DNA from: Acidobacteria bacterium 13_1_20CM_3_53_8
GTDB taxonomy: Bacteria > Acidobacteriota > Blastocatellia > Pyrinomonadales > Pyrinomonadaceae
DNA: 64,000 bases
Direction of reading: 5' to 3'
NCBI GenBank assembly: GCA_001920415.1
Contig: MNJR01000026.1
Span: 186,001 to 250,000 of the forward strand
Below the pieces are notes generated by a model that was given only the letters and a program-made list of their open reading frames with translations, did not search any database and was not told the origin of the DNA. A program made the position numbers and the translations under genes. Positions 51,008 through 55,068 of this stretch are shown here, in pieces. Numbering within the stretch: the first letter of the stretch is position 1; the number at the start of each line of letters is the position of its first letter.

Positions 51008-52984
51008 TTGTTCAGTGATAATTTCCGTCGCGGCGAATCTGAGAAGGGGAAGCTTGGCGGGGTGAAAAGCTCTCGCCTGCTTTCCGGCCTTTCGGATGTT
51101 GCGTGGAAAGCGTTTCAGTCAATCAATAGGCGGCTGCCCGAAGGCGCGGCTGTACGACCGAAGTGGGCGCCGGGGCCTCTTCTGAAATCCTACGAGCGCA
51201 CAAGCCCACCGCTCGGATTCCCGCGCGAGACCGACTCTTTATGCCCGCGCTGCGTCAAGGAAGTTCGCAGTGCCGTCATTACCGGCGAGACTACGCTTGA
51301 AACTCTGATGGACGAGCATCCGGGCGAGATTAAGGCGCAGATTCTTGAAGATAAGGGTCAGGTCATCATGCGCAAAGTCTGCCCGAAGCACGGCGAGTTT
51401 GAGGACGTGATGGCGACCGACCCCGAATTTCTGCGCCGTATAGAATCACTCTTCTTCGGCAGAGATTTCAGGGCGGCTGAAGATAAAGAGGTTCATCGTC
51501 ACGGAACTTCAAACATTAAATTCGGGCGCGGCGCTGTGCTGACGGTTGATTTAACCAACCGCTGCAACATGATGTGCAACCCGTGCTTCATGGACGCAAA
51601 CCAGGTCGGCTATGTTCACGAGCCAACGTTCGAGGACACGAAAGCTATCTTAGACCGCGCAGTCTCTTTCAAGCCGCGCCGTCAGATAATAATTCTCTTC
51701 TCCGGCGGCGAGCCTACGCTTTCACCATATTTTCTTGACGCCGTTGCTTACGCCAAGAAGGTCGGCTTTTATCGAATACTCGCCGCAACGAACGGCATTC
51801 GCTACGCCGAAGACATAGAATTTTGTAAAGCTGCAAAAGCCGCAGGCCAGCACGGCGTTTATTTGCAGTTCGACGGCGTCTCGGAAGAGAAGAACAAGCA
51901 TCGCGGCGTAGGCAATCTCTTCGACGTGAAACTCCGGGCGATTGAGAATCTTGCTTCAGTAGGAATCAAGGTCACGCTCGTCACCACAATCGTCAATACA
52001 ATCAATAACGATGCGATAGGCCAGATAGTAGAGTTCGCTGCAAAGAACATTGATAAAGTTCAGACGATTGCGTTTCAACCTGTCTCGTTCACAGGACGCG
52101 ACGAAGACGTGCCGGACGACGTGCGCATACGACAGCGCTACACGCTCTCAGGCATGACGCACGATCTCAAAGACCAACTCGCCGGAAAACTTCAACCTCT
52201 GCGCGACTGGTTCCCGCTCTCTTCGTACTCAGCATTCACTTCCGTGATGGACATGCTTCAGGGCGCGGACGCTCCATGGGGCTGGTCTTCCTGCAACTGC
52301 CATCCGAACTGCGGCATATTCACGCTCGCCGTAGTTAATCGAAAAACGGGCGAGTTCAAATCGCTCTTCGAGTTCTTTGACTACGAGCAGTTCATGCACG
52401 ACGTTTCCGTCATCACTGATACGGCGCGCGGGCGAAAACTCTCTTACGCGCAGCTTGCTATGGCTATCATGCGAAACTTCCACGCGGAGCGAGCGCCGGA
52501 AGGTTTCCCGATTTCTCAGATCATAAATCTCTTCCGCCCGTCTTCGACCAGTTCTAATTCAGATCGCAACGACCGCATGAAGACGCAGAGCGCGGCGGAA
52601 GACACATCGGACGTGTGGCGCGTGCTCTGTGTAGAGGGCATGTGGTTTCAGGATTTATTCAACTACGATTTCCGCCGCACGGAGATGTGCGTCATTCCTT
52701 ACGGCACGCAGGAAGGCGAGATAAGTTTCTGCGCTTACAACACAGGCGTGGGCTGGCGGCAGATTATAGAAAATATGCACAAGACCGCCAACCTATCGGA
52801 GTGGTACAGCGAGCACGGTCGTCACCCCGTCTACGCCAAAGGCCACAACGTGCCCGGCATAGCCAAGACCAACTCGCTCAGTTTGCCAATAGTCAGCGCG
52901 ATTCTGGCAGAAGACAGCGACGGGCAAGACAAGAAGGTTTCGCCTTACCTCATTGAGGAAGAACAGGAAGAGATAAGCGTCTAG
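51008..52984 (+). CDS. Tetraether-lipid-synthase (Tes/MJ0619)-like radical SAM protein
   Basis: A 658-residue protein starting with TTG at 51008, supported by AAAGGAG 8 nt upstream. The radical SAM cluster motif CNMMCNPC (Cys186, 190, 193) follows LTVDLTNR. SGGEPTLSPYF binds SAM, and GVYLQFDGVSEE is a typical downstream strand. An N-terminal Cys pair (CPRC, 79-82) with KVCPKHGEF, and a later CNCHPNCG, suggest extra metal clusters, as in the Tes family that couples two lipid tails to make membrane-spanning lipids. Acidobacteria make such lipids (iso-diabolic acid and branched tetraethers), so a membrane-lipid role is plausible; function is inferred from family pattern. A strong terminator follows at 53000. 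Confidence 0.8.
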   Translation: MFSDNFRRGESEKGKLGGVKSSRLLSGLSDVAWKAFQSINRRLPEGAAVRPKWAPGPLLKSYERTSPPLGFPRETDSLCPRCVKEVRSAVITGETTLETLMDEHPGEIKAQILEDKGQVIMRKVCPKHGEFEDVMATDPEFLRRIESLFFGRDFRAAEDKEVHRHGTSNIKFGRGAVLTVDLTNRCNMMCNPCFMDANQVGYVHEPTFEDTKAILDRAVSFKPRRQIIILFSGGEPTLSPYFLDAVAYAKKVGFYRILAATNGIRYAEDIEFCKAAKAAGQHGVYLQFDGVSEEKNKHRGVGNLFDVKLRAIENLASVGIKVTLVTTIVNTINNDAIGQIVEFAAKNIDKVQTIAFQPVSFTGRDEDVPDDVRIRQRYTLSGMTHDLKDQLAGKLQPLRDWFPLSSYSAFTSVMDMLQGADAPWGWSSCNCHPNCGIFTLAVVNRKTGEFKSLFEFFDYEQFMHDVSVITDTARGRKLSYAQLAMAIMRNFHAERAPEGFPISQIINLFRPSSTSSNSDRNDRMKTQSAAEDTSDVWRVLCVEGMWFQDLFNYDFRRTEMCVIPYGTQEGEISFCAYNTGVGWRQIIENMHKTANLSEWYSEHGRHPVYAKGHNVPGIAKTNSLSLPIVSAILAEDSDGQDKKVSPYLIEEEQEEISV

Positions 52985-53780: not shown

Positions 53781-54128
53781 TCAATGTCTGGGCGGCGTTT
53801 CTGTTTCCGTCTTTTTGTCTTCCGAAGCTTTATAGGATTGAGGGCGCTGCACTGTGCGAAGCTGCGCCACTGTGTCGCGTATGCGCCCGGCCAGTTGCTC
53901 TATGGTCTCTACACGCTGGCGAGCCTTTTCGCTCAACGGTTCACGCAAGAGCAGTTGCGCCTGGCCTATTACGCCCGTGAGCGGATTGTTGATCTCGTGC
54001 CGCACGTGCGCGACCAGGTCTATAATCTCCGACAGTTTCGTTTCGTACGCTTCGACGAGAGCGCGCAAGCGCTCTTCGTTCGTCAACGCATGGGATTCTT
54101 CGTTAAGCGTAGAGTCTTCGGGGCACAT
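53781..54128 (-). CDS. Stand-alone histidine-kinase dimerisation (HisKA) domain protein
   Basis: A 115-residue protein (ATG at 54128 with GAGG 5 nt upstream; an ATG at 54170 is also in frame but without a ribosome-binding site). It consists of one H-box helical hairpin: KLSEIIDLVAHVRHEINNPL with the phospho-acceptor His44, then GVIGQAQLLL and a second helix ETIEQLAGRIRDTVAQLR. No HATPase domain or receiver follows; the protein ends with a polar tail. HisKA domains normally dimerise and accept phosphate inside sensor kinases. Alone it may act as a phosphotransfer or dimerisation partner. No kinase gene is nearby. Confidence 0.8.
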   Translation of the reverse strand: MCPEDSTLNEESHALTNEERLRALVEAYETKLSEIIDLVAHVRHEINNPLTGVIGQAQLLLREPLSEKARQRVETIEQLAGRIRDTVAQLRTVQRPQSYKASEDKKTETETPPRH

Positions 54129-54341
54129 CTTATCCTCAATTTTTCCGTCACGCTTCTTTTTAAGGAGCATTGAGGTGGGAGGCGCTCTTCATGCCGAAAA
54201 TCTTTGCGCGACTCGACGGTCTGCCCTCGCGTCCAGCAGCCATATTCTGCGCCGATACGCCTTTTCAATCAAGAGCAATCCTGCAATCTTAAACTTTTTC
54301 TTTTCATAGCTCTCTTTCGTCTCTTTGATTGCGTCGCGCGG

Positions 54342-54371
54342 TTGACAACTCACGCTTCCTGCACGTAAATT
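54342..54371 (+). promoter_or_regulatory. Candidate promoter of the tRNA-Gln locus
   Basis: TTGACA (54342-54347), a 17-18-nt spacer and GTAAAT/TAAATT (54365-54371), ~18 nt upstream of the tRNA 5' half. It would drive both the broken and the intact tRNA-Gln. Confidence 0.55.
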
Positions 54372-54454
54372 TTTCTCAAGAGCATTATTGGGAGATCGTC
54401 CAACGGTAGGACTCCAGACTCTGGATCTGGCTATCGGTGAATAAATAGAATTCT

Positions 54455-54528
54455 TCGGGGATCGTCTAACGGTAGGACATCTGACTCTGGATCAGAGAAT
54501 TGGGGTTCGAATCCCTGTCCCCGAGCCA
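54455..54528 (+). tRNA. tRNA-Gln(CUG), intact
   Basis: 74 nt with encoded CCA. Acceptor TCGGGGA pairs with TCCCCGA, discriminator G; D-arm GTCT..GGAC; anticodon stem TCTGA/TCAGA with loop CTCTGGA, anticodon CTG at positions 34-36, reading CAG. T-loop TTCGAAT. It has the same anticodon as the split gene around it but clearly different stems, so it is not a simple duplicate. Confidence 0.95.
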
Positions 54529-54540
54529 ATTAAATTGGCG

Positions 54541-54579
54541 AGATAGGTTCTGAAATTTTCAGTGTTTCAGAACCTATCT
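54541..54579 (+). other. 15-bp perfect hairpin between tRNA-Gln and the HNH gene
   Basis: AGATAGGTTCTGAAA pairs perfectly with TTTCAGAACCTATCT around a 9-nt loop. No T-run follows; instead TATAAT (54584-54589) overlaps the first ATG of the HNH frame. It may be an RNA processing signal, a weak terminator or an operator for the HNH gene. Confidence 0.6.
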
Positions 54580-54587
54580 GCGTTATA

Positions 54588-55004
54588 ATGTTCTTCATGA
54601 GAAAGCTATGTGGATGTTGTGGTAAAAACCGTCTCCTCAAGTTCTTCAACAAGCGGCGTGGGAATCAATTGCAGTCCTACTGTCAACGTTGCCAGAAAAC
54701 AACAAGTCAAATTCATTATCTTACTAATAGGCAGACCCATTTAGAAAGAGCAGCCAAACGTAGAGCATTTCTTCGACGATTAATCAACGAAGTCAAATCG
54801 AAGCCCTGTGCTGATTGCGGTGTTTCCTATTCATATTATGTAATGGACTTTGACCATCGAAAAGATAAGAATTTTTCGCTTAGCCAAGCATGGAGATTCC
54901 ATTCATGGAGCAAAGTGTTAGCAGAAATTGAAAAATGTGATGTAGTCTGCGCTAATTGTCATCGTGAACGAACATATGGTCGAACAGCTAGAGTTGCTAT
55001 CTAG
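54588..55004 (+). CDS. HNH endonuclease with N-terminal zinc ribbon
   Basis: A 138-residue protein. Cys8/Cys11 and Cys32/Cys35 form an N-terminal zinc-ribbon-like unit, followed by a basic helix (LERAAKRRAFLRRLINEVK). The HNH core comprises CADC (74-77), VMDFDHRKDK (87-94) and VVCANCHRERTYG (119-131), the layout of the HNH family common in phages and mobile elements, which makes DNA breaks with a metal-bound His. The first ATG (54588) overlaps a TATAAT, so translation may begin at the ATG at 54597. The stop is formed by the split tRNA T-stem. It is probably the homing endonuclease of this insert. Confidence 0.88.
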   Translation: MFFMRKLCGCCGKNRLLKFFNKRRGNQLQSYCQRCQKTTSQIHYLTNRQTHLERAAKRRAFLRRLINEVKSKPCADCGVSYSYYVMDFDHRKDKNFSLSQAWRFHSWSKVLAEIEKCDVVCANCHRERTYGRTARVAI

Positions 55005-55035
55005 GTTCGAATCCTAGTCTCCCAGAAATTATATA

Positions 55036-55068
55036 GGCCGGACTGATCATCCGGCCTTCATCATTTTT
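55036..55068 (+). terminator. Rho-independent terminator after the tRNA-Gln locus
   Basis: Stem GGCCGGA/TCCGGCC with loop CTGATCA, followed by TTCATCATTTTTA. It ends transcription just after the 3' half of the split tRNA. Confidence 0.85.

Follow-up and report, generated by a model that had tools for sequence, protein, structure and literature searches.

Homing endonucleases are known to reside in introns, inteins or intergenic gaps, sparing the host. The element described here instead breaks a tRNA gene and appears to compensate with a substitute gene. It is a selfish-looking 566-bp insert in a tRNA-Gln(CUG) gene of the soil bacterium Acidobacteria bacterium 13_1_20CM_3_53_8, located in a stretch of 64,000 nucleotides (contig MNJR01000026.1, positions 186,001 to 250,000) that was analyzed as a whole and is referred to as the window. 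The interrupted resident gene is called A. The insert holds a second, complete tRNA-Gln(CUG) gene, called B, and a gene for an HNH endonuclease. A comparable arrangement is known from the mORFs of fungal mitochondria, which bring a replacement gene end, as in atp6 of Allomyces and in atp6, atp9, cox2 and nad3 of Glomus (PMC3630166), and which demonstrate in principle that a homing enzyme can deliver a substitute for the sequence it disrupts. In mORFs a host gene contains an endonuclease gene and, alongside it, a foreign substitute for the displaced part, and the native remnant is located 3' of the endonuclease gene (PMC3630166). The same features were found here, as B is foreign (only 76% identity to A) and the 3' half of A is kept as a remnant; the likeness is one of working and not of kinship. 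The mORFs affect protein genes of organelles and replace the C-terminal part, whereas here a bacterial tRNA gene is affected and the replacement is whole. Part-replacement was seen in a single related locus (L043).

For tRNA genes, SegB of T4-like phages cuts within the genes and aids the spread of tRNA regions (PMC2988022, PMC13096335), and thereby shows in principle that tRNA genes can be targets of a homing enzyme. Like SegB and further free-standing homing enzymes of T4-like phages, the endonuclease described here is encoded by a small gene beside tRNA genes. However, SegB is a GIY-YIG enzyme whose gene lies between phage tRNA genes and splits none, whereas the present HNH gene interrupts a tRNA gene of the chromosome. 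HNH genes are also located between the tRNA genes of mycobacterial and phage tRNA arrays (PMC5966550, PMC6582537, PMC6409571), and mycobacteriophage matches within the HNH family point to an overlap of the enzyme families; the available portions of these reports describe no broken tRNA or enclosed substitute. In synthetic Cleave-and-Rescue (ClvR) drives, which are Cas9-based and engineered in insects (PMC7951863), a nuclease that destroys a host gene is linked to a cut-resistant copy. The present element would be an analogue if the HNH enzyme cuts and B resists, but a natural and bacterial one, placed directly at its target site. Within tRNA genes of the same bacterial family there are also group I introns that carry HNH genes (L057 and L058). 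Such introns restore the tRNA by self-splicing, whereas the insert contains no intron core and the second tRNA appears to do the work. In the literature searched, the coverage of which was incomplete and does not prove novelty, no description was found of an endonuclease element that disrupts a chromosomal tRNA gene and carries the substitute for it.

The locus lies on contig C44 of the 6.1-Mb draft genome (G000). Window coordinates are used for all parts, which are on the + strand unless indicated. Direct reading placed the 5' half of A (47 nt, nt 1-47) at 54389..54435 and the 3' half, consisting of T-arm, acceptor strand and G73, at 55002..55025. The halves are separated by 566 bp, the break is at the variable loop/T-stem, and GCTATC is present at both junctions, once at the end of the 5' half (54430-54435) and once at 54996-55001. 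Joining of the halves in silico yielded a tRNA with every stem paired, which ARAGORN identified as Gln(CTG) and which had 94% identity to L109, the uninterrupted gene of a relative. The inserted element (54436..55001, second GCTATC copy included) has a GC content of 0.41 compared with 0.54 in the window. Its contents follow the order B, hairpin, TATAAT, HNH gene. B occupies 54455..54528 (tRNA at 54455-54525, encoded CCA to 54528) and scored 58 bits in Rfam. Its nearest relatives are the inserted tRNAs of two loci in other genomes, L046 and L048, with 86% identity, and it is 80% identical to a Caulobacter phage tRNA-Gln. The HNH gene (54597..55004, 135 aa) was assigned to PHROG 2255 with an E value of 4.7e-31. 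Its final codons and stop are encoded by tRNA sequence (GCT-ATC-TAG), and the TAG stop lies within the T-stem of the 3' half of A. An earlier reading of the bare sequence, here called the sequence-only reading, had described two perfectly paired tRNA-Gln(CUG) halves 566 bp apart with a duplicated GCTATC, enclosing a complete but different tRNA-Gln(CUG) and an HNH gene. Direct reading and ARAGORN bore out the first part, and ARAGORN, Rfam and the low identity of B to A the second.

Comparisons were made within the family Pyrinomonadaceae (Acidobacteriota, Blastocatellia), where the host genus is represented by one genome, so all relatives belong to other genera. With joined A as query, matches were obtained in 83 of 99 family genomes, mostly full-length and with 77-94% identity; the uninterrupted tRNA that the sequence-only reading had proposed to look for in related genomes is thus present there. 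In several other genera (L109, L110, L115, L117 and others) an intact tRNA-Gln occupies the same place after radical-SAM and/or kinase-like genes. The corresponding synteny markers in the window are a radical-SAM gene (51008..52984), with 53-88% tblastn identity in the orthologous loci containing it, and a histidine-kinase-like gene on the - strand (53781..54170), likewise detected by tblastn in orthologous loci. Because the intact gene, which lacks the insert, occupies the same locus in other genera, the sequence comparison indicates that A is ancestral and vertically inherited and that the 566-bp insert is new. Split and intact tRNA-Gln genes therefore occur at one conserved site within the family, the presence/absence pattern of homing elements. 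HNH genes of this kind were found with tRNA-Gln(CUG) in only 5 of 119 family genomes, the patchy carriage expected of a mobile trait. The earlier suggestion of a recent insertion fits the full pairing of A and its 94% identity to the relative's intact gene.

The association of the HNH family with tRNA genes extends well beyond this locus. In the host genome all six HNH copies of PHROG 2255 type adjoin tRNA genes, namely those for Gln, Lys, Glu, Met (split, in an array), Thr(GGU) and Thr(CGU). The chance of a random gene adjoining a tRNA was estimated at ~1 in 100 (63 tRNA genes in 6.1 Mb), and among the other HNH genes of the host genome (PF01844), two of nine lay beside a tRNA. Of the 29 other best HNH loci in the family, 25 were located beside tRNA genes. 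The same was true for 66/80 loci on genome contigs from many phyla and two archaea and for 38/80 loci on viral contigs. Phylum-wide profile searches yielded few extra loci, every one beside tRNAs. Fragments of tRNA scoring at least 36 bits were ~8 times denser beside the HNH genes (30 in 103 kb) than 1-3 kb away (6 in 173 kb). On the HNH tree the tRNA species were clustered, with 36 changes compared with 61 after shuffling; common descent may account for part of this clustering.

The layout of a split gene with an enclosed substitute was found repeatedly. At the same locus in G014 (L046) and G010 (L048), the order is 5' half, HNH gene, whole Gln(CUG) and 3' half, with the HNH ATG in the anticodon stem. 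The HNH genes of these two loci belong to another lineage than that of the window, and two HNH lineages with different gene orders are therefore present in one tRNA-Gln gene. A planctomycete locus outside the family (L195) has the exact order of the window with its own tRNA-Gln(CUG). The search for the HNH plus tRNA unit in other tRNA-Gln genes, also proposed by the sequence-only reading, was thus positive, in reordered form in L046 and L048 and in the same order in L195. In L065 (G017), the tRNA-Thr(GGU) of a Tyr-Gly-Thr cluster is split likewise, again in rearranged order. In all five complete cases (the window, L046, L048, L195 and L065) the broken and the enclosed tRNA share the anticodon, and the substitute lies inside the broken gene each time. 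Together with the empty site in relatives, this recurrence in other tRNA genes and taxa upholds the central claim of the sequence-only reading that an insertion broke the gene and brings a substitute with the same anticodon.

Partial forms were observed as well. L044 (G011) has a 5' half, an HNH gene and Gln(CUG), and L045 (G005) an HNH gene and Gln(CUG) without halves in another gene neighborhood. In L043 a whole tRNA-Arg is followed by an HNH gene and a 3' half of tRNA-Arg, a replacement of the 3' part only. Two partial loci were found in the host genome: one on C135 (L002, 1400-2120 of the locus), where the decayed 5' half of a tRNA-Lys gene is followed by an HNH gene in opposite orientation and then by an intact tRNA-Lys(UUU), and one (L005) with an HNH gene and a whole Thr(GGU) without any relic of a broken gene. 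The breaks fall in the region that extends from the anticodon stem (3' strand) to the T-stem. Clean split tRNAs on the HNH strand were more frequent than by chance, being detected at 10 of 97 loci with the real pairing of flanks and at 1-3 of 97 when upstream and downstream flanks were mismatched; two of the 10 are the group I introns L057 and L058, and about two (L190, L148) are weak. The sequence-only reading would have counted a split fixed in distant relatives with decayed halves against itself. Decayed splits of a related kind were indeed found, but their scattered occurrence and their origin from separate HNH lineages argue for mobility.

Comparison of L046 with L048 indicates that B is under selection, because the two inserted tRNAs are 71/71 identical while the HNH genes and halves are at 81-84%. 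The inserted tRNAs also differ from resident genes at the site of the break. Here the bases CTAT are near-invariant among residents (62 of 67 locus entries, some genes being counted twice), and the inserted tRNAs carry GAAT or AAAT. From these observations, we consider it likely that a minimal homing element, made up of B and the HNH gene, was inserted in the resident tRNA-Gln(CUG) gene and replaced it. Most likely, the HNH enzyme would introduce a cut or nick at the variable loop/T-stem of tRNA-Gln(CUG) genes that are still intact. Repair of the break by recombination with an element-bearing copy would then write in B and the HNH gene as a unit. Transcription of B, probably driven by the promoter of the old tRNA gene, would keep CAG decoding, and B would itself escape cutting because it differs from residents at the split site. 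Given that the layout recurs in tRNA genes of other specificity and in a second phylum, the element looks like a natural "cut and rescue" gene. More tentatively, it may represent a widespread cleave-and-rescue class in bacteria, archaea and phages, in which each HNH enzyme would destroy the gene of one tRNA species, spread together with an uncuttable tRNA that has the same anticodon, and drive tRNA-gene turnover. If confirmed, the element would show that rescue-linked gene drives have a precedent in nature, and it would offer a way in which tRNA genes are replaced and duplicated in genomes and in the tRNA arrays of phages. The findings further draw attention to a nuclease family (PHROG 2255) that is large, uncurated and predictable in its targets.

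Several observations weigh against a homing element that moves with its substitute. Many members of the HNH family adjoin an unbroken tRNA with no halves. The inserted tRNA of L044 is dissimilar to the other substitutes and retains TTAT (TTATC) at the split site. None of the loci compared share a near-identical B and HNH gene at different sites, so joint movement was not seen among them. Between L046 and L048, the HNH gene and the radical-SAM gene are both 81% identical, which fits vertical descent; on the same grounds, a recent transfer of B and HNH between G014 and G010 was considered but not supported. An intact tRNA-Gln(UUG), found in the search for host-genome tRNAs, is present elsewhere in the genome, so that B is not the sole glutamine tRNA. 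As tRNA-Gln(UUG) may cover CAG, the tRNA-Gln(CUG) gene need not be essential and "addiction" is unproven; CAG is yet the commoner Gln codon (479 compared with 225), and retention of the addiction type is a possibility. Finally, in L004 (G000:C53, 108-590 in HNH orientation) an HNH gene interrupts the variable loop of a tRNA-Met(CAU) in an array, and a local replacement is absent. This case would suit a passive origin in two steps, in which an HNH homing gene broke A and B came separately, by tRNA recombination or from an array, without a unit and without rescue-linked spread. The varying combinations of B and HNH among loci and the tRNA arrays of the host genome are in keeping with such an origin. 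It is nevertheless unlikely in view of the anticodon shared by broken and enclosed tRNA in 5/5 complete cases, with all substitutes located within the broken gene.

A phage-type supply or anti-defence function was also weighed, in which the HNH-tRNA pair derives from phage tRNA arrays, B is kept for resistance to tRNA-cleaving defences or for phage codon use and the break of A is incidental. The HNH family is common in phages, where homing enzymes and tRNAs are associated (PMC13096335, PMC5966550), with 38/80 viral loci beside tRNAs, and B resembles the Caulobacter phage tRNA-Gln. However, the locus is chromosomal, the insert is devoid of phage genes and B shares more identity with tRNAs inserted in relatives (86%) than with those of phages (80% for Caulobacter phage), which makes this origin improbable. 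Rejoining of the halves at the RNA level, raised by the sequence-only reading, would leave A functional and B an extra. Although joined A pairs in all stems, a transcript spanning both halves would contain B, the hairpin and the HNH gene. In sister elements, moreover, the halves are decayed (L046), trimmed to about nt 38 (L044, L046 and L048) or lack one member (L043, L044), whereas B is conserved (71/71). Because sister halves decay or vanish, rejoining or trans-splicing is highly improbable and this part of the sequence-only reading was not supported. Just as little credit can be given to an ordinary group I intron or to a tRNA gene holding what remains of an integrase island. Both kinds exist in the family, as att-like duplications (L104-L106, L111) and as group I introns with distant HNH genes (L057, L058), but the insert measures only 566 bp, lacks an integrase and splits the tRNA in the variable loop and not in the anticodon loop. 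The group I core (RF00028, Rfam) gave no match at the window even at E values up to 1 and none at L046, L048, L195, L065 and L004, while it was found in L057 and L058. An integrase-type element was rejected since the insert consists of B and the HNH gene only and neither half is restored.

The predicted enzyme contains the catalytic His, Asn and His and the zinc-binding Cys pairs of the HNH nuclease superfamily. C, H, N and H are invariant across 46 aligned sequences, where the invariant residues correspond to the HNH motif and the zinc ligands, and all 46/46 aligned relatives matched phage HNH families of PHROG. Pfam and NCBIfam gave no usable assignment for the family, and a sequence search for a relative of solved structure found none. 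The predicted structure, with a predicted local distance difference test (pLDDT) score of 94, gave beta-beta-alpha-Me matches, aligning with low scores to Gme HNH (Z 5.2) and T4 endonuclease VII (Z 4.3) and, also with low scores, to Cas9 HNH domains and the zinc part of Hpy99I. The GC content of the gene is 40% compared with 54% for the window and is lower than in any 400-bp stretch of it.

Between B and the HNH gene, a hairpin of ~21 pairs is located at 54536..54585 (-27.8 kcal/mol, z -7.5), possibly a terminator or processing signal. TATAAT at 54584..54589, 7 nt 5' of the HNH start, is a possible leaderless promoter, judged from its sequence; L043 has CTATAATGTTTATATG there. A promoter-like site of the original tRNA gene (TTGACA, 18 nt, TAAATT) is now located 5' of the 5' half of A and B (54342..54371). 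It scored 10/12 in a consensus scan, where one such match is also expected by chance, and its position fits. A terminator-like hairpin of the original gene lies at 55035..55057 and was found by sequence comparison in L046 as well.

The group I introns L057 (G023) and L058 (G013) contain a more distant HNH gene and split the tRNA at the anticodon loop (~1430-2050, HNH orientation). Their halves match tRNA-Asn, and RF00028 scored 101 and 95 bits. The host genome has two arrays of divergent tRNA genes (G000:C9:132421-134277 and G000:C53:123818-125012), the first of which is adjoined by a PF01844 HNH gene. In G071 and G047, contigs terminate at the split site; these ends look like assembly breaks and not like elements. 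In L107 (G006) and L108 (G012), an intact, clearly different tRNA-Gln(CUG) with a GGTGAAAT D-arm lies close to the kinase-like gene family that also marks the window locus. An ancient replacement followed by loss of the HNH gene may have left it there. In L104, L105, L106 and L111, the 3' part of the same tRNA-Gln (from about nt 28) is duplicated in an att-like manner, as by ordinary integrative elements, indicating that this tRNA-Gln is targeted by several kinds of element.
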